Shown here: positions 3,276-26,854 of the stretch, in pieces
Layout of the letters: the number at the start of each line of letters is the position of its first letter
Position numbering within the stretch: position 1 is the first letter of the stretch
Assembly: GCA_030533405.1 (NCBI GenBank)
Contig: JAUNJF010000022.1
Coordinates: 3,364-59,405 of the forward strand
Source: Eubacteriales bacterium
Lineage (GTDB): Bacteria; Bacillota; Clostridia; Lachnospirales; Lachnospiraceae
Reading direction: 5' to 3'
DNA: 56,042 nucleotides
Made by a program: the position numbers and the translations under genes
Notes under the pieces: model-generated
The model's input: the letters and a program-made list of their open reading frames with translations, nothing else
The model's database searches: none
Told to the model about the DNA's origin: nothing

Positions 3276-3962
3276 CTATTTTATCTCATCCGAAATGATA
3301 TGTCCATTTTCAATCTGCACAATCCGGTCACTATAAGATGCACAATCCGCAGAATGTGTAACCTGCAAAATGGTAATTCCTTTTTCCCGATTCAAACGCT
3401 TAAACAAATCCATAATCTCTTTACCGGATACAGAATCCAGGTTACCAGTTGCCTCATCTGCAAGAATGATATCTGGATTGCCTAACACTGCTCTTGCCAC
3501 AGCCACACGTTGCTGTTGACCACCTGAAAGCTGGGCTGGCATTGCTTTTCGTTTTTCTGTCAGGCCCGTGATATTCAAAATCTCATCCAACGCTTCCTTT
3601 AACTCTGATTTCTTATATCCCTTCACAGTTAAAGGAAGTAAAATATTATCCTCTACATTCAGGTTTTGCACCAGATTATAAAACTGAAACACAAAACCAA
3701 TTTTATCTAAACGGAACTTCGAAAGTTCCTTTTCCTTCATGGTTGTAATCTCCTGTCCAGCCATAGAAATGCTTCCTTCAAAATCACGATCCAAACCACC
3801 AATCAAATAAAGGAGCGTAGATTTTCCACTGCCAGATGCACCCATTAACGAGACAAATTCTCCTTTTTCTACAGAAAAGGTTGCATCATTTAAAACCTGA
3901 TTTTTGTTTTCATTTTTTCCAAAACATTTATTGATTCCCTTTACATCAATCATTGTACTCAT
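3276..3962 (-). CDS. ABC transporter ATPase, MacB/LolD/BceA type
   Basis: Nucleotide-binding subunit of a lipoprotein- or peptide-type exporter. Walker A GASGSGKS, signature LSGGQQQRVAVARA, and Walker B DIILADEATGNLD are all intact. The phrase DEATGNLD is characteristic of the MacB/LolD/FtsE group, which pairs with FtsX-fold permeases such as the one encoded upstream. An ATG at 3971 overlaps the Shine-Dalgarno sequence (AAAGG), so the ATG at 3962 (MSTMIDV), 9 nt beyond that site, is the better start and gives 228 residues. The gap to the permease gene is 56 bp. In Gram-positives such pairs move antimicrobial peptides or sense them together with a two-component system. Confidence 0.93.
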   Translation of the reverse strand: MSTMIDVKGINKCFGKNENKNQVLNDATFSVEKGEFVSLMGASGSGKSTLLYLIGGLDRDFEGSISMAGQEITTMKEKELSKFRLDKIGFVFQFYNLVQNLNVEDNILLPLTVKGYKKSELKEALDEILNITGLTEKRKAMPAQLSGGQQQRVAVARAVLGNPDIILADEATGNLDSVSGKEIMDLFKRLNREKGITILQVTHSADCASYSDRIVQIENGHIISDEIK

Positions 3963-4018
3963 TTTTATCATCCTTTCTTCTATCGTTATTCCATATCTGC
4001 TTCGCAGATGAAGCCAAA

Positions 4019-6475
4019 CTATTCATACTTTAACTGGTCTGCTAAATTCATCTTTCGTAGTTTGCGTACTGGGAATAGCGCTACCATTGTGAAGGTTACC
4101 CAGAGGGCAATCACAAAAATTCCGTAAAATTCCACATGGTATACAATTGGAAACTCGACAGCCGCAATTACCAGCATACGCTTAAATGGTTCAAACGCGA
4201 TAAATGCAAGTGGAAATGCTACCAGTAACGCAATCCCGGATGCAATCATACTCTCTAAAATCAACATCCACGCAACCTTTTGTCTTGTCATAGAGGTAGA
4301 TGCCAACACTGCACATTCTCGTTTTCTACCCTCAAATCCGATGAGCTGATTACTTACCATGCCGAAAACTGTTAAACCAATACCAAACACGATTACTGCA
4401 AACAGGATTCCCCTCATTCCTTTTTTCTTATCTTGCCAATAAATCTTATACTCTTCAATCGTACGGATATCCGATAATGTTGTTTCTGAATATTTATGTA
4501 ACTGCTCAACTACCTTTTGAGGATTATCACATCGAACCAATATTTCTCCAGCCTGTTCATGATACATGTCTATGTAACGATCCATCGAAATTACAATCGA
4601 ATTTCCTACGGTGTCATACTGGTATGAATTGATAAATCCTGCCAATTTCATTTTCTTTTTCATCGGTAAAAATGACATTGCATTGAATGTAATCTCAACC
4701 TCATCACCTACCTGAATCTGCCATTTTTTCGCAAGCCCCTTATCCATTAGCATAGAATCCGAATCCAACTGTGTTGGACAATTTTCAATGGCAGTTAACA
4801 GACGATATCCCCCATCATTTAGTGCAAAGATATTTGCATCCTGCTTTTGATCATTTATCAAAACTGACGTCGAAAGATTATAGATTGTTTCCGTCTCCGT
4901 AACGCCATCCAAATCCTTTATATACGCAAACTGCGCAACATCTTCGTTATCATTCACATTGGATATCACATCACAGTCATATGTTTTTAAATCATAGACA
5001 CCATCCAGTATTGATACAAAAATGAAAATAATCAGCGCAAGTGTAGAAGCAGTAACACATAATACCATACTTCCCACCGTACTTTTTTTCGAACAACTTT
5101 CCACAGCTGCCATATGCGCAATCGGCATATTCCAATGCGCAAACAGCTTTGCTAAACAGTTTGCAATCAAACGAAGCAGCAGCGGGAACAATAATGCCAC
5201 AGCAACCATAATCATTGCAAAACAAACAACCTGTGCAATCCCATTTTCAACAAAGAAATTCGTAACAACTGCAACAATTACACAAATGATTCCAACTCCG
5301 ACTGTCGACTTACGAAACTGATACGCAGTATCTTTATTGTCAAAAATGATATCTCGAATCGCCATTTTGGATGTTTTCAAAATCTCCTTTAGTGGACAGA
5401 TACACATTACCAACACACCAATCACAATACATCCAACAACAGCCAAGGGACTTAACGGCGTCAATATCGTATCAAGCTCTAAATTTCCAGCACTATCAAC
5501 CTCAAAAATTCCATAGAAAATCGGTGTTCTTGCAAGCAAATATAAAACAACACCTAGCAAACCACCAATAAATCCATACAAACCTGTTTCAATCAGCAAA
5601 ATTCTTGTTGTAAATGAAGATGACAGTCCCAAACTTCTGAAGGTTCCCACAACAGCAATTCGCTCACATACAATTCGACTCGATACCGAAATTGCCACAA
5701 AAATAACAAGAAAGAAACAAACCAAAAAGATTAGGAAGAATAAAGCACTTAACTCCATCATCATTTCTTTATTCTCTTCTGAATCCACAAGCAACTGCAC
5801 GGTTGCGTTATATGCAATCTCCTTAAGCTCCTCACTGGCAGCTTTTGCCTCACTATCATTAAGCACATCTACATAAATACTTTTCGCTCTGCACTGTTCC
5901 ACAAGCTTCGCATAGTCATCCATGCTCACATATACATTACATTTACCATTTGCATTTCCGTAATTTTCCAGAATTACTACGACTGTAAATTCCTGCTGTT
6001 CTTCATATAAATCCGAAAGGGAAATCACATCACCAACCTTCCAGTTTTCGCGTGCTGCCATTGTTTTTGTAATCGCAGCTTCCCTGTTTCCAAGCGTTAA
6101 CACATTTTTCATCAAACGCATTTTATAGGCTTTCTCATAATCCATAGAAACAACCGAAAAATCTCTCTTTTGAAAGAATGTATAAAAACCCTCTGGAATC
6201 ATCGTTGTTCCATCTGTTTTTTCGTAAACCAGTAACTGTTCATTCTCATACGGAATATCAAATTCCTTTGTCACACCAACGGAGTCATGCATCATGATAT
6301 CCGAACTGCCTGTAATCTGTGTCAGCATGGTTTTCACCATTGGTTCCATACTTCCGATAATATCAAAGCTAAGAAGTGCCACAAAACTGCATGCACAAAT
6401 GCAGACAACCAGTAATATGGTACGAAATGGCTTTGCAAACATGTTTTTCAACAAATATTTTCCTATAATTGACAT
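4019..6475 (-). CDS. FtsX/MacB-type ABC permease, duplicated core
   Basis: Membrane subunit of the exporter, 818 residues. An N-terminal membrane anchor (about 15-40) is followed by an extracellular MacB-PCD-like domain, then three membrane segments (about 240-360), another helix pair near 395-440, a second anchor near 470-495, a second extracellular domain and three C-terminal helices. This is the two-FtsX-domain arrangement of LolCE- or YtrF-like permeases. AGGAGG lies just before ATG. The ATPase gene follows. Substrate is unknown; the adjacent LytTR/GHKL pair and the upstream metallopeptidase suggest a peptide or envelope role (inference). Confidence 0.9.
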   Translation of the reverse strand: MSIIGKYLLKNMFAKPFRTILLVVCICACSFVALLSFDIIGSMEPMVKTMLTQITGSSDIMMHDSVGVTKEFDIPYENEQLLVYEKTDGTTMIPEGFYTFFQKRDFSVVSMDYEKAYKMRLMKNVLTLGNREAAITKTMAARENWKVGDVISLSDLYEEQQEFTVVVILENYGNANGKCNVYVSMDDYAKLVEQCRAKSIYVDVLNDSEAKAASEELKEIAYNATVQLLVDSEENKEMMMELSALFFLIFLVCFFLVIFVAISVSSRIVCERIAVVGTFRSLGLSSSFTTRILLIETGLYGFIGGLLGVVLYLLARTPIFYGIFEVDSAGNLELDTILTPLSPLAVVGCIVIGVLVMCICPLKEILKTSKMAIRDIIFDNKDTAYQFRKSTVGVGIICVIVAVVTNFFVENGIAQVVCFAMIMVAVALLFPLLLRLIANCLAKLFAHWNMPIAHMAAVESCSKKSTVGSMVLCVTASTLALIIFIFVSILDGVYDLKTYDCDVISNVNDNEDVAQFAYIKDLDGVTETETIYNLSTSVLINDQKQDANIFALNDGGYRLLTAIENCPTQLDSDSMLMDKGLAKKWQIQVGDEVEITFNAMSFLPMKKKMKLAGFINSYQYDTVGNSIVISMDRYIDMYHEQAGEILVRCDNPQKVVEQLHKYSETTLSDIRTIEEYKIYWQDKKKGMRGILFAVIVFGIGLTVFGMVSNQLIGFEGRKRECAVLASTSMTRQKVAWMLILESMIASGIALLVAFPLAFIAFEPFKRMLVIAAVEFPIVYHVEFYGIFVIALWVTFTMVALFPVRKLRKMNLADQLKYE

Positions 6476-6489
6476 TTTTTCCTCCTAAT

Positions 6490-6608
6490 TATGAAACTTC
6501 GTTTCATAGGCAATTTAAGGTAGGTCACAAGGTATCCTCCCACTTCGTGGGCGCCCTCCTTGCGACAATTCGTAAAATTGCATTCCAAGTATGAAACTTC
6601 GTTTCATA
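6490..6608 (-). repeat. Structured intergenic repeat, copy A
   Basis: Three stem-loops lie between the peptidase and permease genes. TATGAAAC-TTC-GTTTCATA occurs at 6490-6508 and again at 6590-6608. Between them an extended hairpin has outer arms 6524-6532 and 6558-6566 (9 bp with one G-U on the minus-strand RNA) and an inner stem CCCAC-TTC-GTGGG at 6539-6551. The same architecture recurs at 29590-29673. On the minus-strand transcript all loops are GAA. It sits inside a probable operon, so it may be an RNA processing or stability element, or a small palindromic mobile repeat. Confidence 0.75.
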
Positions 6609-6615
6609 GGCAATT

Positions 6616-8640
6616 TTACTCCCATCTACTAACTCTTTGTTCGGGTGCTACATACATGCCGTCCCCTGGTTTCACATCATATATTTCATAAAACTCTTTG
6701 ATCGACGAAAGAACGGCATTGACACGAACCACATCCGGACTATGCTCGTCATTTTGAAGCAAGTCAAGCGCCATTCCACTTTCTTCCAATGTACACCAAA
6801 TTCTTGCATAATTTTCTATTGCTTTTTTCTGACTCTCTTTGTCATTACGAAAGACATTCATCACGCTCTCTACCGCACCAATATCTGCATAATTTTCTCC
6901 ACTTGTTTTTGCACCATTGACATGATAAATGTCCATAATCGTCATACCCGAGTAATAGTTTTCCATTTGCTGCAAACGAGTCTTTAACAACGCTTGATCC
7001 TCCTGACAAATTTTCTCTGGCGCATACTTTCCATTTTCATCAAACACGATACAGTTTGAATCAAATGCATGCCCCATTTCGTGTCCCATCACCACACCAA
7101 GGCCTCCCATATTCGAAGCATAATCTGCATGTACATCGAAATAAGGTGCATGCATAATCGCAACGGTAATCGTAAATGTATTACACGGACTGTATGCTGC
7201 ATTTACTTCCATCGACAACATGTTATTCTGTGTCTTATCAATTGGTTTTCCAAGTATTTCCATATCCCTTTGTACTTCACGTTTTTTTACATTTACCATT
7301 GTTTCAAATGCATCTTTTCCAATCACATTTGCATCTTCTTTTCGAATTTCATGCGGTGTTCCCGTTCCCGCCACAAAATGCATATTATGTAGTTTTGCAA
7401 GAAGTTGCTTTCTTGTTTCCTTTGTCAGCCAGTCTGCATTTGTAATCAGGTCATCATAACTATCCACGATATCGCAAAACATTTTCTGAATCACCTGATC
7501 CATTTCCTCTGTGTAGTAATACTTTACATACAGGTCACTAACCTCATCATGGAAAAGATTTGCCACCATATAGGCTGCCTCTTGATCGTAGTCCTTTTTC
7601 TTCGTTCCACCTGCATCCAAAAATGGATAATCTTCCTTCAAGTAATCCTTATATGCAAACAATAAATCCCCCAGCATATACAATTTTAGATTGTCCAAGT
7701 TCTCTTCCTGAAAGCTTTTGCTCAAAAATGCAAGTTGTTCCTCATCCTGTATGAGCCACGCACCATACGGATTATCAATGTCATAAATTGCTTCAACATC
7801 CTCAATTTTCATACCTTCTAAAATCGAATTCAAATCCTCATTTTTTACTTCTCGAATTGTCGCAAGCGGACTTACCGCTTCCTGTATTGAAAAATCTGTA
7901 TCACAGGATAAATCAATCATAAAATATACAAATGCTTTCGCCTGTTTTGCCGCTTCCTTTGGCGCTACCCCCGTTGTCACCAGTGCCTCTGTCATATAAG
8001 CAAGCAGCTGTTTACGCACATCATCCTTTTTATAAATGTCCTCAAGCTTAACTCCACAATACTCTGTTTGCTGATCTAAAAACAAAGCATGATTGGTTCC
8101 ATCCAAATAGTTATCATTAACCGATATATTCCAGTATGATGTGATTCCTCGCTGTCTTAGCTGCGAGAAATTATTCTTGATTTCATCCATATTTTTTGCA
8201 TCCATAATCTGTTTTGCAAGTTGTAAATATGTATCCTTTGCCGAACTTTCTTTGTTCTCCAAATACGTCTTAATCTGTTCGTAAGCATCCTTTATAATCT
8301 GTTCATCACTTCCAAGTACAAATGCTTCCTTGCTATTGACAATTTCCTGAATCATCACATAAATTTCTTCTTCCACCTGATTCTGAATATCCTTCGCTGC
8401 GCCTAGCATCTGATCTGTGTAATGCAACGCATAGGTACTTAATTTTTCTTTGTTCATATATCCATAAAAATCATCCTGTGCCCGAATTGCTTCTTCTTTT
8501 GACGCTTCCACATCTGACTCCTGCGTACTTTCCTGATTTGAATTTGCTACTCGTTCTTCCTTTTGCACACCACAGCCTGACATTCCAATCACCAGACTCA
8601 GTGCAAGACAGACTGATCGTATTCTCTTTTTATGTCTCAT
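6616..8640 (-). CDS. M13 (neprilysin/PepO-family) metallopeptidase lipoprotein
   Basis: A zinc endopeptidase of the M13 family, 674 residues, anchored outside the membrane: the signal peptide ends in lipobox MSGC with Cys23. Zinc ligands are His520 and His524 in HEMGH and the downstream glutamate in GENYADIG (Glu582, Asp586). The substrate-binding motif NAAYSP lies at 480-485, and the protein ends near the usual C-terminal Trp (SRWE). Length matches PepO/neprilysin relatives. M13 enzymes cleave oligopeptides. It is the first gene of a same-strand group with the FtsX-type exporter and the LytTR system, so it may trim a signal or antimicrobial peptide (inference). The start is supported by GGGAGAG 7 nt upstream. 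Confidence 0.93.
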   Translation of the reverse strand: MRHKKRIRSVCLALSLVIGMSGCGVQKEERVANSNQESTQESDVEASKEEAIRAQDDFYGYMNKEKLSTYALHYTDQMLGAAKDIQNQVEEEIYVMIQEIVNSKEAFVLGSDEQIIKDAYEQIKTYLENKESSAKDTYLQLAKQIMDAKNMDEIKNNFSQLRQRGITSYWNISVNDNYLDGTNHALFLDQQTEYCGVKLEDIYKKDDVRKQLLAYMTEALVTTGVAPKEAAKQAKAFVYFMIDLSCDTDFSIQEAVSPLATIREVKNEDLNSILEGMKIEDVEAIYDIDNPYGAWLIQDEEQLAFLSKSFQEENLDNLKLYMLGDLLFAYKDYLKEDYPFLDAGGTKKKDYDQEAAYMVANLFHDEVSDLYVKYYYTEEMDQVIQKMFCDIVDSYDDLITNADWLTKETRKQLLAKLHNMHFVAGTGTPHEIRKEDANVIGKDAFETMVNVKKREVQRDMEILGKPIDKTQNNMLSMEVNAAYSPCNTFTITVAIMHAPYFDVHADYASNMGGLGVVMGHEMGHAFDSNCIVFDENGKYAPEKICQEDQALLKTRLQQMENYYSGMTIMDIYHVNGAKTSGENYADIGAVESVMNVFRNDKESQKKAIENYARIWCTLEESGMALDLLQNDEHSPDVVRVNAVLSSIKEFYEIYDVKPGDGMYVAPEQRVSRWE

Positions 8641-19914: not shown

Positions 19915-20139
19915 CTATGCCTTTAATTTTCCTTCTGCTAAATCTCTTTCCGTCAAATAGTTCGTAGAAAATGCTGCGTTACACTCTGCAATTTCCTTTG
20001 CTCCATTAATATAATCTGCATACAAATCCCAAAGATCTATTCCACCATAAGACTCCAAACCATCATCATCTGGCAACCATTCCTTAATTAATGCAATGCG
20101 TTCTTCCTTTGTTGTATCTTTAATTAATGTTGACTTCAT
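19915..20139 (-). CDS. Small acidic protein of unknown function
   Basis: A 74-residue soluble acidic protein without recognised domain. The core reads IALIKEWLPDDDGLESYGGIDLW, followed by LYADYINGAKEIAECNAAF; it looks mostly helical. AAGGAG lies 11 nt before the ATG at 20139 and 5 nt before an in-frame TTG at 20145; either could be the start. The frame is open upstream to 20187 but without a ribosome site there. It lies 40 bp upstream of the deformylase gene on the same strand and may be co-transcribed. No function is proposed. Confidence 0.65.
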   Translation of the reverse strand: MKSTLIKDTTKEERIALIKEWLPDDDGLESYGGIDLWDLYADYINGAKEIAECNAAFSTNYLTERDLAEGKLKA

Positions 20140-20270
20140 CGACAATGTTGCTCCTTCCTTTTGTAAAGAATCTAATCTATTTCTCAATGTTTTCCACTAA
20201 AATTCCAAATCACTGTCCTCATTTAATTATACCAAATTATAGGCTATATTCAATCTAATTAGGTAGTTTC

Positions 20271-20311
20271 ATAATAAAAATATAAGGATGACACTTTTTT
20301 GTGGCATCCTT
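20271..20311 (-). terminator. Intrinsic terminator of the reverse transcriptase operon
   Basis: On the minus strand an 11-bp stem with one mismatch (AAGGATGCCAC / GTGTCATCCTT, 20311-20284) with a six-A loop is followed by ATATTTTTATT. It lies 17 bp after the stop codon of the last gene in the operon. Confidence 0.8.
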
Positions 20312-20328
20312 GTTTCTGAATATATCCT

Positions 20329-20673
20329 CTATCTTTTTTCCTCTTCCAGCTCCTCTAGCGCATCGAAATAGTTTTCCATAAACGCATTTTGATTTCTGCT
20401 TCTCTCCTCCAACTCGGAATCATCCTCGACTACTATGTCATCCTTTCCTGGCTCATACAATGCACCATCCATTCCGATCACAGCATCAGAACCTTCATCT
20501 AATCCTCGCTGATACATGATTGCATCTTCCATCTCCACAATCCGTTCTTCATATTCACCATTTTCATCTGACTCGGTAGCCCTCAGGCAAACCCGAACCA
20601 TCGGAACATAATCCGCTGGTCGCTCCTCACAACCATAATCTGCTTCCTCTATACGAATAATCTTATAAATCAT
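20329..20673 (-). CDS. Small acidic protein, third gene of the reverse transcriptase operon
   Basis: A 114-residue acidic protein of unknown function. The N-terminal half looks like beta strands (MIYKIIRIEEADYGCEE, then MVRVCLRA), with IGMDGALYEPGKDDIVV in the middle and a Glu-rich helical tail. The ATG at 20673 overlaps the end of the preceding gene by 11 bp, so translation is coupled; the frame opens further upstream (20715) but without a good ribosome site. Its placement behind the reverse transcriptase and the 95-residue gene, and the terminator directly after it, make it part of one unit. It could be a partner or regulator of the enzyme (inference). Confidence 0.7.
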   Translation of the reverse strand: MIYKIIRIEEADYGCEERPADYVPMVRVCLRATESDENGEYEERIVEMEDAIMYQRGLDEGSDAVIGMDGALYEPGKDDIVVEDDSELEERSRNQNAFMENYFDALEELEEEKR

Positions 20674-20950
20674 CTGTATCCAATCCCTCCCGATAAAGTC
20701 TCGTAACCGCAGCATTTGCCTCTTCTGCTTCGTGTTTCTTGCGGAAACGTTCTCTGTCCTCTAATATCGCAATCATTTCATCTACCACAAGCTCCACACT
20801 GGGACTTTCATGGTTATACAGATAACCAAGCATTCTCGTGGCAGTATAATCTGTCGTCATATGTTTATATGCAATTTCCTTACAAAGATCTTCATGGAAT
20901 CCCTTTTCCTTCAAAACCTTGTATAGTTCATAACTCTTTTCTGATGGCAT
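20663..20950 (-). CDS. Small helical protein, second gene of the reverse transcriptase operon
   Basis: A 95-residue, highly charged and mainly helical protein. Recognisable stretches are SYELYKVLKEKGFHEDLCKEI, here in two parts, and TDYTATRMLGYLYNHESP. It matches no family that I can name; it is too short and unlike in sequence to be a diversity-generating-element Avd protein. GAGGAG lies 8 nt before ATG, and the gene starts 2 bp after the reverse transcriptase stop codon, so the two are tightly co-expressed. A role as accessory subunit is inferred from position only. Confidence 0.75.
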   Translation of the reverse strand: MPSEKSYELYKVLKEKGFHEDLCKEIAYKHMTTDYTATRMLGYLYNHESPSVELVVDEMIAILEDRERFRKKHEAEEANAAVTRLYREGLDTDDL

Positions 20951-20952
20951 AT

Positions 20953-22173
20953 TTATCGCTCCTCTTCACCATATGTATGATTCTGAAATTTCCAATAGCT
21001 ATTCACCAGACTCTGGAATCCCAGTTCTTGAATCTTTTCATATCGCAGATTGTATTTTTTCTTTCCGTAGTTTCCGTAATAAACATAACGGATACAATCT
21101 ATTGCATACTGATCAATACTTTTTAATTTATCCTCTTTTGTGATTACTGGGAAATACCAGCGGCACCAGGTGATTTCTCCATGAATTGGATTTTCATAAA
21201 ATTTGCGATTCAAAAAACGTATATACGCTAATGCTGCTTTTTCATCTGGTACCTGATTGCGAATTTTCCAACGATAAATTGCCCGTGCTTTACGCTTCAT
21301 TTTTCCCTTTAGCTTTTGAACCGAGATGTCTGCCACTCGCACATCATCCTGAAAAAATTCAAATCCCAAAAACTCGATTCGATTTCCTGGCTGAAATCGA
21401 TACTCTTTTTTCTCATTTATAATCAAACCCTTATGCGCAAGCGTATTCTTAATAATCCTCTCATGTTCCATCAATTCTTCTTCCTGACTAGCAAACACAA
21501 TGATATCATCAGAATATCGAATATACGAAATGTCATTCTTTGCAAAATACACATCCAGCTCCATCAAATATAGATTTGCCAAAAAGCCCGAAATCGGAAC
21601 ACCAGCCATAATGCCTTTTCGAACTTCAAGAAGCTTCTCCTCCTTGCGAGCATACGGATTTCTCAACAGGTTTGCAAACAGCTTATAAAGCTTTCTTTCC
21701 GCCGGCAAATGCTGTTGAAAGAGCGCCAAAATCCCTTCTGTGTCTACCGAATTAAAATAATCATGAATATCTACCTTGTAAGCATAACATTTCGCAATAT
21801 CTACATTACGAACCAGGGAAAACACTGCACGCTTGACACCTGTATTTTGTCGAAAGGAGTATAGATTGTCCGCGAATAAATGGTCATAGGACTTGAGAAG
21901 AAATGCAATCATTTTCAACACATAATTCTCTTCCCGCCCAAATGTAAATACCACTCTTTTTTTATTCGTACCCTTTTTATTGATCTCATTTACACTTGGA
22001 ACGTCAAATTCATAGGTGCGTTCCAGCTTCTCCAACACACTAAAATACTCTTTTCCCGTCACAAATTGCTCCAAATCAAGCAATTCCTTTTGACAAAGAT
22101 TGCCTTTTGTACGCTTGTACTCCAAAAATTCCATCCAGTATTTTGTTTTAAAAAGTTGATCAAATAACTCCAT
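20953..22173 (-). CDS. Free-standing reverse transcriptase of unassigned class
   Basis: RNA-directed DNA polymerase, 406 residues. Conserved blocks: ADNLYSFRQNTG (block 2), YKVDIHDYFNSV with catalytic Asp135 (block 3), GIMAGVPISGFLANLYL (block 4), RYSDDIIVF with Asp222 and Asp223 (block 5, YSDD rather than YADD), GLIINEKK (block 6) and NRIEFLGFEFF (block 7). A thumb-like basic region follows. There is no maturase, HNH or other extra domain, and no retron VTG motif. It most resembles group II-like or unknown-group (UG/DRT-type) enzymes. The ATG at 22173 has AAGGAG 6 nt before it; the in-frame TTG at 22188 lies before that site. An intrinsic terminator stands immediately upstream. Two small genes follow. 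Confidence 0.9.
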   Translation of the reverse strand: MELFDQLFKTKYWMEFLEYKRTKGNLCQKELLDLEQFVTGKEYFSVLEKLERTYEFDVPSVNEINKKGTNKKRVVFTFGREENYVLKMIAFLLKSYDHLFADNLYSFRQNTGVKRAVFSLVRNVDIAKCYAYKVDIHDYFNSVDTEGILALFQQHLPAERKLYKLFANLLRNPYARKEEKLLEVRKGIMAGVPISGFLANLYLMELDVYFAKNDISYIRYSDDIIVFASQEEELMEHERIIKNTLAHKGLIINEKKEYRFQPGNRIEFLGFEFFQDDVRVADISVQKLKGKMKRKARAIYRWKIRNQVPDEKAALAYIRFLNRKFYENPIHGEITWCRWYFPVITKEDKLKSIDQYAIDCIRYVYYGNYGKKKYNLRYEKIQELGFQSLVNSYWKFQNHTYGEEER

Positions 22174-22186
22174 AAAACACTCCTTC

Positions 22187-22217
22187 AAAAAAAAGGGTAG
22201 ATACTTGTTCTACCCTT
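22187..22217 (-). terminator. Terminator/attenuator directly before the reverse transcriptase
   Basis: On the minus strand a perfect 9-bp stem (AAGGGTAGA / TCTACCCTT, 22217-22193, 7-nt loop) runs into eight T that end next to GAAGGAG, the ribosome site of the reverse transcriptase. It can release a leader RNA before the gene or act as an attenuator. Confidence 0.85.
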
Positions 22218-22363
22218 ACATTAATCATGCGATTCTGGAAAAGGATTTAATATCCACGTGTGGATAAACCAGACTCAACATAAAACGATTGCCTGCAAAA
22301 TCATGTCTGTTCTATGCTTCATCCCTGACAGGCGCATCACTGCATTCCATTTCTATGATTAAC
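22193..22363 (-). ncRNA. Candidate structured leader RNA of the reverse transcriptase
   Basis: The sequence between the promoter and the attenuator would give an RNA of about 170 nt. It can form a multi-stem domain closed by GCCTG...CAGGC with an inner TGTC...GACA, then the hairpin TATCCACACGTGGATA (22266-22251), then the terminator hairpin. Several defence reverse transcriptases and all retrons use an RNA encoded just upstream of the enzyme. That this is a template or cofactor RNA is inference. One frame through it would read as protein if a UAG were ignored, so a decayed coding remnant is an alternative. Confidence 0.5.
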
Positions 22364-22369
22364 TATAAA

Positions 22370-22398
22370 ATTATATCAAATTATAGACACACTGTCTA
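22370..22398 (-). promoter_or_regulatory. Sigma-A promoter of the reverse transcriptase operon
   Basis: On the minus strand, TAGACA (22398-22393) and TATAAT (22375-22370) are separated by exactly 17 bp. This is the best promoter match seen in the window. It lies just downstream of the rhomboid gene stop codon. Confidence 0.75.
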
Positions 22399-22400
22399 TA
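22382..22400. promoter_or_regulatory. Perfect palindrome over the -35 box (operator candidate)
   Basis: TATAGACA-CAC-TGTCTATA has 8-bp arms and a 3-bp centre. The right arm contains the -35 hexamer of the reverse transcriptase promoter, so a dimeric repressor bound here would block RNA polymerase. No candidate repressor gene is adjacent. It could also act as a weak end for the rhomboid transcript. Confidence 0.6.
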
Positions 22401-22410
22401 TCGGTGCAAT

Positions 22411-23010
22411 TCAGACAATATCCTGTTGCATGTTATTGTCTGGATTCTTCCTCCGATTCAAATTATACCCTATGATCGAGCCAACTAATCCGCCTATAAT
22501 ATGTGAAATATTCGAAACATCATCCTGTAAAAATAAGCCTTCATACACCTGTTGTCCTATAAAAATCACAGTAACCAGAATAAATGTTACCGGTATTTCA
22601 CCTTCTTTAAATCCAGTAAATGATGCCATTATGATAAACGCAAAGACGACTCCGCTCGCACCACACAATCCTGTATGCCAAAAGAAAACATAATTGAACA
22701 GTCCTGTGATCAGCGCTGTAACTGCAATAATTTCTGCGATTTGCGCCGATCCATGCTTTTCTTCAAGCATTGGTCCTAACAACAAAAGATATGATGCATT
22801 GCCAATAAAATGACTCCATCCGCTATGACCGAAAATATGCGTAAAAAACCGTACATACGTCATCGGACTTAATAAGGATGTATGATACGTCATAAATAAT
22901 TGTTGCGTTATTCTTCCACCCGAACAAACATCAAGTAGCGTTGCGATAAAACACACAATCACCAGACTCAACGTTACTGGTGCATTAAATGACAATTTTA
23001 CTTTCTTCAT
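22411..23010 (-). CDS. Rhomboid-family intramembrane serine protease
   Basis: A six-helix membrane protein of 199 residues. The catalytic serine is Ser119 in GLCGASGVVFA (GxSG), and the paired histidine is His170 in SNISHIIGGLVG. The N-terminal hallmark HIFGHSGWSHFIGNA near 58-71 is also present. Rhomboids cleave single-span proteins inside the membrane. GGGAAGGG stands just before the ATG. It is transcribed toward the reverse transcriptase but separated from it by that operon's own promoter. Substrate is unknown. Confidence 0.93.
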   Translation of the reverse strand: MKKVKLSFNAPVTLSLVIVCFIATLLDVCSGGRITQQLFMTYHTSLLSPMTYVRFFTHIFGHSGWSHFIGNASYLLLLGPMLEEKHGSAQIAEIIAVTALITGLFNYVFFWHTGLCGASGVVFAFIIMASFTGFKEGEIPVTFILVTVIFIGQQVYEGLFLQDDVSNISHIIGGLVGSIIGYNLNRRKNPDNNMQQDIV

Positions 23011-23072
23011 TTTTATCCCTTCCCTGACTATGATTCACTATGCCAAATGCGTAAGTTCTATAATGAAATATA

Positions 23073-24035
23073 TTACTTCAAATCACCTACATATTCAAGG
23101 CTATTCAAATCATCTCCAGCTGAAAGAATCATAACATCTCCTTCCATACCTTTCTGGATTGCATAGTATGTATCTGCCTTTTTGAAGATCAATGCATCCT
23201 TATTGTATGCATAAATGTTAGCCTCAGTAAGAACATCACTATGTGAATAGTAAAATACCCATTTGGTTCCCTCTGGGAAATTGTCTGCTGTGAAATCCGA
23301 TTCTGCCAAAGGACAAATCCTAATATTCAACTCGTCTGTTGGATAGTAATCTCCTTTGAGCGCTTCAAATACAGAATCCAAACTTACATCTACACCTGCA
23401 ATACTGTTCTGAACTGTTTCAGAGATTGTAAATGTCTCCTGCTTTGCCTCCGCTAAAATCTTTGCCAATTCGTACACTCTTGCACGTGTCATGGTCATCG
23501 CTGTCGAATTCTCCAATAATGGCTGCATACTACCACCATACGCCTCCAAACCAGCGGCACAAACATTTTGCTCCTTACGTTTCACCCAAGCAATCTGTTC
23601 CTCCTGAAGTGCTGTCATCTTATCCTCTGAAAGTGTCTTTCCCAGACGAGACCACAATGCATTTAACTCGTCATCCCAAAGCATATACCACTCGTTTGAT
23701 TTAGAATTCATTTCCTGCTGCGGAATATCCCAGTTAGCTTTTTCATACTCCACAGACTTAGCTTCTACAGCATCGATTTCCTCCTGAAGAGAAACCGTGT
23801 TTTCCTTCTGCTCTTCGCTACCATCTGTAGTACTTTGCTGTTGTTCCACTCCCTCAACATCCTTTGCTGCATCCTCTTTGTCAGCCTCTTCCGAATCTTC
23901 AGAAGCTTGCGTAGCAGCCTGCTCCACAGCAGTCGTAGCAGTGTCTGAACCTCCACTGTTTGCTGCATTTCCACAGCCAAATAAAATAGTTGCACAAACC
24001 AATAATGTAATCGATATAAGGGATTTTTTTCTCAT
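23073..24035 (-). CDS. LprI-like (DUF1311) lipoprotein
   Basis: A 320-residue lipoprotein. The signal peptide ends in lipobox LFGC. An Ala/Glu/Thr-rich low-complexity spacer (about 28-80) follows. Residues about 85-190 match the lysozyme-inhibitor LprI N-terminal (DUF1311) fold with its typical pattern of Trp, LNALW and the EEQIAWVKRKEQNVC helix. The C-terminal ~115 residues are of unknown fold. GGAGG lies 7 nt before the ATG at 24035; the in-frame ATG at 24056 lies before that site. Likely surface role in envelope protection; the lysozyme-inhibitor function is known only for some family members. Confidence 0.85.
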   Translation of the reverse strand: MRKKSLISITLLVCATILFGCGNAANSGGSDTATTAVEQAATQASEDSEEADKEDAAKDVEGVEQQQSTTDGSEEQKENTVSLQEEIDAVEAKSVEYEKANWDIPQQEMNSKSNEWYMLWDDELNALWSRLGKTLSEDKMTALQEEQIAWVKRKEQNVCAAGLEAYGGSMQPLLENSTAMTMTRARVYELAKILAEAKQETFTISETVQNSIAGVDVSLDSVFEALKGDYYPTDELNIRICPLAESDFTADNFPEGTKWVFYYSHSDVLTEANIYAYNKDALIFKKADTYYAIQKGMEGDVMILSAGDDLNSLEYVGDLK

Positions 24036-24132
24036 ATCTTTACCTCCATCAATCATATTTTTTCAAAATCGATGTCAGTATAGCACCCCATTTACAAAAT
24101 AACTACCACCTCAAAACAATCTTCATATAACC

Positions 24133-24158
24133 TTAAGAATAATATCATTTATTCTTAA
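24133..24158. repeat. AT-rich inverted repeat
   Basis: TTAAGAATAA and TTATTCTTAA form perfect 10-bp arms around a 6-bp centre between the ABC-2 operon and the lipoprotein gene. On neither strand is there a proper T run after it, so it is at best a weak terminator of the ABC-2 operon or a protein-binding site. Confidence 0.5.
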
Positions 24159-24181
24159 CAAAAAATGTAAAAACTCATTTT

Positions 24182-25021
24182 TCAAGAACCACTTCCATCA
24201 TATTTCGAAGCACCCTTCATCCATAATTTGTAGCTGCCATAAAAAGCAGCAATTCCCAAAACAGGGGACAACCATGTCAAAACTGGCACCTCATCTGGTC
24301 TAAGAATTGCCAGACTAGGGTAATACGCCATAAATGCAACTGGCAAAATAAATGTAAAAATGAATTTGAAAACATCATTAAAAATCGTCACTGGATACTT
24401 TGCGTAATCCTTCATTTTAAGCGAAATGTCAAGTAGCCAAAATGAATTCTGGATCCAGAAACACGAAGCTGCGGCAGCATTTTGAAGCGCCATCATGAAT
24501 AACGAAGCTGTGACCAATGCAACAAGTAGTTCTACCACCATAAGAACTGTCACAGGCAGCCCCAATTTCACCCATGCGTAGATTAACGTACCGATTCCAA
24601 AAAACAGCTGACTGAATCCTTTCACATCAAACACCTCTGAAATATAGTAAAACCACAAGTTGATTGGACGGAAACAATATTTCACAAAATCACCATCGTA
24701 AACATAACGGCGCAGGCTCCAGTTATTATCCAATAAACACTGGGTCGGTGTTATAGAAATCAACGAAAAGCCATAAAGAAACAGGATTTCATAATAGCTC
24801 CATCCATTAATGGACGGAAACTTCCCAAACATAATCAAAAACGCAATGAAACCAGCAATGTTTGTGGCAATCATACCGATTGTGGAAATGATAAAATCCG
24901 CGCGATAACTCATTTTACTCTTTATATCCTGAACAATAATTTTAAAATAGATTTTTGTATAGAATGCAAGTCCTCGTTTTTGCAAAACGATACCTGATTT
25001 TGTTGTACTCGCTTGATTCAT
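24182..25021 (-). CDS. ABC-2 family exporter permease (second)
   Basis: A 279-residue membrane protein of the ABC-2 family with six hydrophobic segments, starting with the amphipathic stretch ...YTKIYFKIIVQDIKSKMSYRADFI typical of this two-permease exporter type, given here only for position (about 15-45). The ATG at 25021 stands 1 nt after the stop codon of the preceding permease gene, with GGAGG 5 nt before it; the in-frame ATG at 25033 lies upstream of that site. It would form a heterodimer with the other permease. Substrate is unknown. Confidence 0.9.
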   Translation of the reverse strand: MNQASTTKSGIVLQKRGLAFYTKIYFKIIVQDIKSKMSYRADFIISTIGMIATNIAGFIAFLIMFGKFPSINGWSYYEILFLYGFSLISITPTQCLLDNNWSLRRYVYDGDFVKYCFRPINLWFYYISEVFDVKGFSQLFFGIGTLIYAWVKLGLPVTVLMVVELLVALVTASLFMMALQNAAAASCFWIQNSFWLLDISLKMKDYAKYPVTIFNDVFKFIFTFILPVAFMAYYPSLAILRPDEVPVLTWLSPVLGIAAFYGSYKLWMKGASKYDGSGS

Positions 25022-25022
25022 G

Positions 25023-25829
25023 TCAACCTCCATTTACTGTTACCTGCTTTATTGAAATGCGCCAAAAAATTGCACTAAAAATCGAAATTGCAACCACCCA
25101 GAACAGTGACATTCCAAGCTTTGACATAACGGTTTGCAGGTCTGGATTTTTGGTCATCAAAAGGGTAAGTGGTGTGTCATAAATTGCCCTAAATGGTAAG
25201 TATTTTACAACACTTGCAACCCGATCTGGAAAAAACGCAAGGGGAATCGTTGCACCGGATAACAGCGACACAATCACCTGTCTCATCATATTAATTCCCC
25301 AAATTGATTCCGTGTACAGACAGATTGTGCCTACGATAAAATCAATGTTGTAATTTATCACAATCGAAAAAATAAATGCAACAAAGAAATAAACCAGATT
25401 CCAACCTAGCGGAATCGTCCCCTTCGTCATCAACCCAACAATGATAAATGTCGGAATAAATGTGACAAAAAAGTTCACCACAAGCGTTCCTGAATTTTCC
25501 CAAAAGACGTATTGCTTGTATTTGAATGGTCTAAGTAAATCCAAAACAATCTTTCCATTTTGAATGTTACGACCAATTTCCCAAACAAGATATAACTCTA
25601 CTACCCCATAAAGTGAGGATGCTAAAACCAAATATACCATTGTCATTTCAAAGGTCATACCATTTACAACATCCGTTCCTGCCGATGTGAAAATTGCCTT
25701 CCACAAAAAATAGATCAGGGTAAGATAAAGAAGATTTCCAAGTACCATAACAAACAATGCAAGACGCCACTGAATGGTTTCCAGAATACCAAGCCTGGTT
25801 AAAGCAAAGTATTTTTTTAGTTGTTTCAT
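25023..25829 (-). CDS. ABC-2 family exporter permease (first)
   Basis: A 268-residue permease with six membrane segments and a periplasm-facing loop after helix 1 (FTSAGTDVVNGM). The family is the one used by BcrB/daunorubicin-type exporters with two different permeases. Its ATG overlaps the stop codon of the ATPase gene by 4 bp (ATGA), so translation is coupled. Together with the ATPase and second permease it makes a complete exporter. Confidence 0.9.
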   Translation of the reverse strand: MKQLKKYFALTRLGILETIQWRLALFVMVLGNLLYLTLIYFLWKAIFTSAGTDVVNGMTFEMTMVYLVLASSLYGVVELYLVWEIGRNIQNGKIVLDLLRPFKYKQYVFWENSGTLVVNFFVTFIPTFIIVGLMTKGTIPLGWNLVYFFVAFIFSIVINYNIDFIVGTICLYTESIWGINMMRQVIVSLLSGATIPLAFFPDRVASVVKYLPFRAIYDTPLTLLMTKNPDLQTVMSKLGMSLFWVVAISIFSAIFWRISIKQVTVNGG

Positions 25830-26854
25830 AATGCTACCTCCTCCCCACTCTCCAATGGCGAATTGTATATTTTCTTGATTACGTCTTCTGTGGAAATCTC
25901 TTCTAGCTGCATATCTCTTACATTCAGGATTTCCTGAACCTGTTCCAGAATCTTCATGACACGTACCTTTTCTTCATTTACAAGAATTGAAATCCAGGTA
26001 TCATCATTTGTAACAGACACTTCAAACTCAGCTAGTTGTTCCTTTAGCTTTGCAGCTGCCTCTGTTACCTTTTCCCGCGGACGTATTTTAAGCGTTCTGT
26101 AGGCACCAAAGAATTTCTTCAAATGCTCAATATCATTGTCATACAACATCTTTCCCTGATCGATAATGACAATCCTCTGGCATAACGCATCCACATCTCC
26201 CATATCATGCGTGGTAAGAATTACGGTTGTATTCTTTTTCTGATTCAGTTCTAAAATCATCTCACGTATTTTACTCTTCATCGCCACATCGAGACCGATT
26301 GTTGGCTCGTCAAGAAATACCACCTTCGGATTATGTAAAAATGCGGCAAGAATGTCGCTGAGTGTTCTTTGTCCTAATGACATCTGACGTACTGGTTTAT
26401 GCAATAGCGAATCCAAATCCACCATGCTACCATACAATTTTAGCATTGCATTGTAGTTTTCATCAGGAATCTGATAAATGTCTTTTAACAGTTTAAATGA
26501 TTCCACCAGCGGTAATGCCCACCAAAGCTGTGATCGTTGTCCAAATACAACGCCCATTTCCTGACTGTTTTTCGATCTGTCCTTGTAAGGAATACGATTG
26601 TTTATGATGAGTTCTCCAGCACTCGGTTCCAAAACACCTGTCATCATTTTGATTGTGGTGGATTTTCCTGCTCCATTTGGACCAAGGAAACCGACGATTT
26701 CTCCCTGCGCAACTTCTAAATTAATGTTATCTACTGCACGCACTATTTTATAATCACGAGAAAACAAATCTTTAAGGCTACCCTTCAGTCCTTCGTGTCT
26801 GTTCAACACCTTAAATTCTTTTGTTACATTTTTCAATTCAATAATGTTTTCCAT
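25826..26854 (-). CDS. ABC-2 exporter ATPase
   Basis: A 342-residue ATPase. Walker A GPNGAGKS, the signature MSLGQRTLSDILAA (a variant of LSGGQ), Walker B VVFLDEPTIGLD and the switch histidine in TTHDMGD are present. An N-terminal extension (EFKVLNRHEGLKGSLKDLF) and a C-terminal domain (about 240-330) of the type found in multidrug and YadG-like ATPases are visible. It is the first gene of the three-gene exporter operon and is divergent from an AraC-family regulator, with repeated operator sites between them, which suggests that this regulator controls it. Confidence 0.94.
   Translation of the reverse strand: MENIIELKNVTKEFKVLNRHEGLKGSLKDLFSRDYKIVRAVDNINLEVAQGEIVGFLGPNGAGKSTTIKMMTGVLEPSAGELIINNRIPYKDRSKNSQEMGVVFGQRSQLWWALPLVESFKLLKDIYQIPDENYNAMLKLYGSMVDLDSLLHKPVRQMSLGQRTLSDILAAFLHNPKVVFLDEPTIGLDVAMKSKIREMILELNQKKNTTVILTTHDMGDVDALCQRIVIIDQGKMLYDNDIEHLKKFFGAYRTLKIRPREKVTEAAAKLKEQLAEFEVSVTNDDTWISILVNEEKVRVMKILEQVQEILNVRDMQLEEISTEDVIKKIYNSPLESGEEVAL

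Follow-up and report, generated by a model that had tools for sequence, protein, structure and literature searches.

The stretch of DNA analysed here (56,042 nucleotides; hereafter the window) encodes on its minus strand a reverse transcriptase of 406 aa (20953-22173, ATG at 22173), which was assigned to UG26 on the basis of PADLOC, Pfam RVT_1 and alignments and whose YSDD active site is intact. The PADLOC profile PDLC03764 (RT_UG26) matched residues 1-398 with 507.5 bits (E 5e-153), and the next UG profile reached 97.6 bits. UG26 was followed in the PADLOC ranking by a generic reverse transcriptase profile, and then by UG27, UG17, and Drt9 as the next DRT profiles. The six relatives submitted also had UG26 first, with UG27, UG17, and Drt9 among the next. 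This full-length match bears out the preliminary description of the locus, in which a DRT-type enzyme had been proposed. Across 96 UG26 enzymes both catalytic aspartates of YSDD were kept without exception. Tyr356 is also found in all 96 and Tyr378 in 94, neither of which can be singled out as a primer since the residues surrounding Tyr356 show weak similarity to a group II intron enzyme in the alignment as well. The reverse transcriptase family is matched twice in the window genome, the second time on another contig. According to excerpts of PMC12632851, every UG enzyme characterised so far acts in phage defence. A defence role for UG26 is probable by this kinship, on which the PADLOC label rests likewise.

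The ribosome site of the enzyme gene (GAAGGAG, 22186-22180) is preceded on the same strand by signals for a separate transcript. A consensus scan located a promoter at 22398-22370 (TAGACA at 22398-22393, 17 bp, TATAAT at 22375-22370), near-consensus as previously described, with 11 of the 12 letters. It ranked first among 17 promoter-like sites in 20000-26000, a count of sites that is not above that of shuffled sequences (mean 20.9). Judging from the promoter spacing and the closing helix of the RNA, the transcript is expected to start near 22363. It would end at an intrinsic terminator (22217-22187) made of a hairpin of nine pairs (22217-22193) and a U run (22194-22187), the one with the most pairs among six terminator-like sites in the surroundings (shuffle mean 2.9 sites). 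The U run directly abuts the ribosome site, again as described before. An exact palindrome, TATAGACA-n3-TGTCTATA (arms of 8, spacer 3), is indeed present over the -35 region (22382-22400), but a regulatory role for it is not supported. Palindromes with arms of 8 and a loop of at most 3 number six in the 56-kb window versus one to eight in six random sequences, and a genome-wide pattern search of the window genome returned one exact copy, that of the locus itself, so that the palindrome is not beyond chance and is probably a product of it. At up to three mismatches there were 28 genome matches, fewer than for the backward control (57), and the candidate was rejected. As a separate observation, two near copies of the TATGGACA-type palindrome lie 8.6 kb apart on contig C5 (L142 and L144; 59226 and 50632), one on each side of the other reverse transcriptase gene of this genome.

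The leader (22363-22187, minus strand) holds an RNA of the Rfam family RF03026 (RT-5) at 22337-22238, which scored 65.5 bits against a cut-off of 45.7, covered model positions 1-104 of 104, and is the sole RT-5 match of the window genome. RT-5 was reportedly described in a paper of 2017. The window also carries a GA-cis RNA (Rfam RF02987) at 6527-6623 on the minus strand, with 41.1 bits versus a cut-off of 34.7. An extended model that includes a closing helix (P0) was built from 26 RNAs and matched 22355-22222 with 60.5 bits (E 8e-13). The RNA with this helix spans 22363-22220, and P0 begins at the predicted transcript start. Its 5' strand (22363-22355 and 22349-22345) pairs with its 3' strand (22240-22236 and 22228-22220), on the basis of the window RNA fold and of covariation in relatives. 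Model alignment and covariation placed P1 (22324-22321 with 22274-22271) and, inside it, the P2 arm (22317-22309 with 22286-22278; inner part 22302-22299 with 22290-22287). Covariation further pointed to a pseudoknot between GCCUGU (22333-22328) and GCAGGC in the P2-arm loop (22296-22291), and to a hairpin P3 (UAUCCA-CACG-UGGAUA, 22266-22251). P3 is separated from P0 by the linker UUAAAUCCUU (22250-22241), a candidate template by its position. The RNA family itself is already catalogued; the closing helix and the pseudoknot are additions beyond the Rfam model.

Conservation of this fold was assessed by searching the extended model against 96 sources, namely the window and 95 of the 102 loci L002-L103 (the duplicates L027, L030, L032, and L035 and the truncated loci L025, L056, and L092 were left out). 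Matches were obtained for 93 sources and extended over the full length of the model in 92, and no match to the extended model was found in L093, L099, and L103. On 92 distinct rows, 93.3% of the cells of the consensus fold pair, versus 69.7% in shuffled and 41-45% in slid alignments, and changes on both sides were observed at 41 of the 43 consensus pairs. P0 showed such changes at 13 of 13 pairs in an alignment fitted to the helix, and all counts for modelled helices lean towards structure because these helices were fitted in the model. The six-pair pseudoknot is absent from the model and thus provides a cleaner test, in which all 527 cells are paired, with compensatory changes at all six pairs and 52 compensatory cells versus 10.2 in shuffled alignments, and pairing falls to 19-40% when slid. 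The GU directly before P3 is invariant (93/93). When the strands of the closing helix were swapped among loci, the observed mean was 30.0 versus 19.3 for swapped strands, with 38 of 93 loci under 0.05 and seven under 0.01; few loci are significant because many share a near-identical helix sequence, and the covariation counts say more about this helix than the swap test, though the alignment was fitted to it. The single-sequence folding energy of the leader is ordinary (z -0.85). The covariation search upstream of homologous enzymes that had been proposed from the letters of the locus yielded a conserved fold with a fully paired pseudoknot. The previous mention of a leader with several possible stems was an understatement, as the leader fits a curated family of RNAs whose fold covaries over 93 RNAs. 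Such a conserved, covarying structure upstream of homologues supports the view that the locus resembles DRT systems in having an RNA with a defined fold that goes with the enzyme and is encoded in its leader, and the earlier reading, a conserved RNA next to a DRT-type enzyme, was largely right.

Retron RNAs are closed by a helix of their two ends, and NAxxH and VTG are motifs of retron enzymes. If P0 were an a1/a2 duplex of this kind, the G just behind it would prime, and P3 and the linker would be copied once into a branched RNA-DNA. The closure of the RNA by its two ends, the varying length of P3 among relatives, and the sequence of the window enzyme, which is clearly related to solved retron enzymes (less so than to group II and DRT9 enzymes), are in line with this scheme. 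The retron profile, however, reached 60.7 bits, below its cut-off of 235, VTG is found in 7 and NAxxH in 3 of the 96 enzymes, and UG26 was the best PADLOC family, with no retron family among the matches listed. The retron reading that had been raised for this locus is thus not supported, and a retron-like mode of action is decidedly improbable.

RT-5 and UG26 are closely tied. RT-5 was detected above cut-off in 22 of 392 genomes of the order, all of them among the 27 that have UG26 at E<=1e-60 (the next genome follows at 5e-41), and it is absent from the other 365 genomes of the 392 scanned. The enzyme reading frame lies downstream of the RNA in all 22 RT-5 loci. Five of the 27 strong-UG26 genomes (G120, G210, G334, G362, and G381) gave no extended-model match at E<=10 in 4.4-9 kb. 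One of these, G334, encodes its UG26-like enzyme as the C-terminal part of a 1271-aa frame (L134, 1156-4971), with no RT-5 RNA nearby; by eye, the N-terminal part of this frame looks like a radical-SAM protein. The UG26-like enzyme of another, G381, is divergent and altered in its core motifs (L135, 1824-3041), also with no RT-5 RNA nearby, and the 711-aa frame beside it (3358-5493) resembles by eye an ABC exporter of the peptidase type. Named genomes, scanned separately, provided 80 UG26 loci (the best 80 of 559), of which 75 carry the RNA according to an RNA-core profile (E<=0.01). The five others are L025, L056, and L092, whose contigs begin at most 130 nt from the enzyme, and L093 and L099. 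Matches to mobile elements comprised 13 plasmid records and one phage record, none covering 80% of the query, and viral contigs gave a single weak fragment match at 30% identity. A partial search of the literature retrieved no paper linking RT-5 and UG26, no described role for RT-5 and no described RNA for UG26, and our claim of priority is limited accordingly. To the catalogued family the present analysis adds the closing helix and the pseudoknot, the close association with UG26, the arrangement of the genes, and the failed tests for DRT9, DRT10, and retron features, which set it apart from these systems.

Gene orders around the RNA bear on the question of whether it is a scaffold or regulator only, for example through leader attenuation of the enzyme gene, and not a template. 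The RNA ends at most 250 nt upstream of the enzyme in 69 of the 75 RNA-bearing loci. In the window a terminator lies between the two, which would suit such a role, as would the lack of a repeat pattern in the linker. In L040-L042, however, one gene sits between RNA and enzyme (that of L040 has SAP and DUF6434 domains, and the other two cluster with it), and in L058 (9597-10415), L080 (12311-13127), and L090 (13107-13866) the RNA lies directly behind the partner gene, 1-5 kb downstream of the enzyme. The RNA therefore acts not only as a leader of the enzyme gene. Moreover, such RNAs serve as templates in the Class 2 relatives that have been characterised, as far as the available parts of their descriptions go, and a role as scaffold or regulator only is unlikely.

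The partner protein corresponds to the PADLOC family RTasCOG2852, a DRT accessory, which was matched by eight of the ten neighbours submitted (L101 at 1e-59, the others weakly); no Pfam family covers it convincingly. A partner-like gene stands next to RNA and enzyme in 67 of the 91 loci tested (relatives and window) and in 55 of the 75 RNA-bearing loci from the best 80 of 559; L013 and L015 are among the loci where it is present. No RTasCOG2852-like gene was found within 1.8 kb upstream in the window. A search of the window genome for RTasCOG2852 also gave no match, but neither did the controls. The enzyme tree grouped the window with nine other enzymes at moderate support (96/65); of these ten, eight are partner-less, one (L025) is truncated, and one (L029) has the partner. 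The partner-less state required four changes, and 500 of 500 shuffles were as low; with 53 of 76 rows in no group, the tree is no test of a single partner loss. Behind the window enzyme lie small genes of 95, 128, and 90 aa, which had no match in the families searched and were not found within 5 kb of 80 other enzymes, except for a relative of the 95-aa gene near L058. No defence gene was detected among the five window neighbours scanned.

Transcription signals differ with the presence of the partner. Of the 93 aligned RNAs, 67 are preceded within 1.8 kb by a partner-like protein and 24 (window included) are not; two were not assignable. A -10 box (at least five letters, at most 26 nt upstream of the RNA) was found in 18 of the 24 partner-less loci and in 20 of the 67 with a partner, versus a background of 34 in 275. 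A separate terminator hairpin within 75 nt behind the RNA was present in 7/24 and 10/67, respectively, against 1/93 in a control 400 nt further on. These counts suggest that most partner-less loci transcribe the RNA from a promoter of its own and that in many other loci it is embedded in a longer transcript. P0 itself ends in a U tract in 12 of the 24 partner-less loci and in 45 of the 67 with a partner, and perhaps doubles as terminator in the longer transcription units. The arrangement of the window, with own promoter and separate terminator, is not the rule among relatives.

The linker between P3 and P0 is 8 nt long in 83 of the 93 RNAs, contains AA in all 93, and starts with UUAA in 52. 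One reading would have a U tract of the RNA template poly-dA, as in DRT9. Drt9 (UG28) is among the related profiles, and the window linker is followed by UUUU. Counted over the linker and two further letters, at least five U were found in 1/93 and at least four in 13/93, whereas the DRT9 tract is called universally conserved in the sections of PMC12483538 at hand, and copying of this kind is very improbable. The A-B-A' pattern of DRT10 was also sought. A first count was slightly high (a match of at least four in 25/93 versus 17.7 shuffled), but in a swap control on 79 distinct contexts the mean was 2.75 versus 2.77 for swapped tails, and the signal was gone. Since neither an A-B-A' enrichment nor a U tract was found, no repeat template can be read from the linker.

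The linker does show complementarity to P3. Specifically, AUCC of the window linker (22246-22243) can pair with GGAU of P3 (22255-22252). On 81 distinct contexts, complementarity between the last four linker letters and the P3 3' strand averaged 7.19 versus 5.85 for swapped tails (sd 0.18), and 0 of 1000 swaps were as high, a result that is not a probability because related sequences are not independent. The same scan along the rest of the RNA ranged from -2.3 to 1.7 standard deviations, and the controls gave 2.1 (P2 strand) and 3.4 (direct repetition of the P3 5' strand). At least three Watson-Crick pairs are possible in 50/93 RNAs and four in 17/93; some loci, such as L008 and L026, are without this complementarity. 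It may reflect a second hairpin or a switch. UG26/RT-5 could conceivably represent a further Class 2 mode that dispenses with a C-terminal protein primer and with a repeat-aligned template, and in which the linker can pair with the 3' strand of P3 in place of the 5' strand. The strand exchange between P3 and linker (GGAU with AUCC) could then serve to open the template, to close it or to reset it from one round of copying to the next. We consider this mode possible though rather unlikely.

Alongside the RNA family, its fold, its close tie to UG26 enzymes, and the intact active site, which were established by computation, we propose as the likely reading that the locus is a two-part UG26 system acting against phages, in which the RT-5 RNA is a scaffold that is repeatedly copied by the enzyme, probably at the linker. 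An RNA of about 140 nt would have a promoter and a terminator of its own, with the enzyme encoded just behind. The enzyme would hold the RNA, presumably stable, as a scaffold and reverse-transcribe a short part of it over and over; this part is probably the linker of 8-10 nt that separates P3 from the closing helix. We infer the place of the template from its position, as in Class 2 DRTs. The copying would serve an anti-phage response. Those members of this enzyme family that have been studied produce repetitive DNA of an unusual kind, and a common ancestry with telomerase is possible, as stated in parts of PMC12632851. The tie of RT-5 to UG26 with a complete covarying fold provides a defined RNA and enzyme that can be tested for a DNA product.

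Compared with known systems, the window RNA is not different in kind from Rfam RT-5, whose model is without the closing helix and the pseudoknot. Likewise, the window enzyme is a full-length UG26 like those accompanied by RTasCOG2852, the difference being the missing partner gene upstream. In DRT2 (UG2) the enzyme-bound RNA has a pseudoknot (portions of PMC12039810), as RT-5 does, but the DRT2 template comprises about 120 nt between ACA motifs, whereas the whole RT-5 RNA is about 140 nt long, with 43 consensus pairs. DRT9 (UG28) and DRT3a have related profiles and a short template in a loop by a stem-loop (excerpts of PMC12483538 and PMC13174585), whereas RT-5 has no conserved U tract and the window locus has one enzyme gene. 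DRT10, which is UG17 according to the available text of PMC12632851, combines a related enzyme with an upstream ncRNA of 137 nt that has a closing stem with arms and a last stem-loop just before the template loop (same source and extent). On the other hand, the UG17 profile match ends at position 370 of 429 near the UG26 C-terminus, leaving the last 59 positions unmatched, and the C-terminal Ser/Tyr primer of DRT10 has no counterpart, as the last residue is Ser in four and Tyr in none of the 96 UG26 enzymes. The partner is SLATT in DRT10 and another protein in UG26; the five neighbours scanned in the window gave no match to a SLATT family, and the neighbours of relatives were partly scanned. 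With primer tail and repeat pattern missing, one should not presume that UG26 works as DRT10 does. UG26/RT-5 does not show those hallmarks of DRT9, DRT10, and retrons that were tested. In DRT3a, DRT9, and DRT10, a short loop segment by a stem-loop of a cis-encoded RNA is copied repeatedly, as described in the accessible parts of PMC13174585, PMC12483538, PMC12489045, and PMC12632851. UG26/RT-5 shares with these Class 2 DRTs a cis-encoded structured RNA tied to the enzyme, and most likely works like them.
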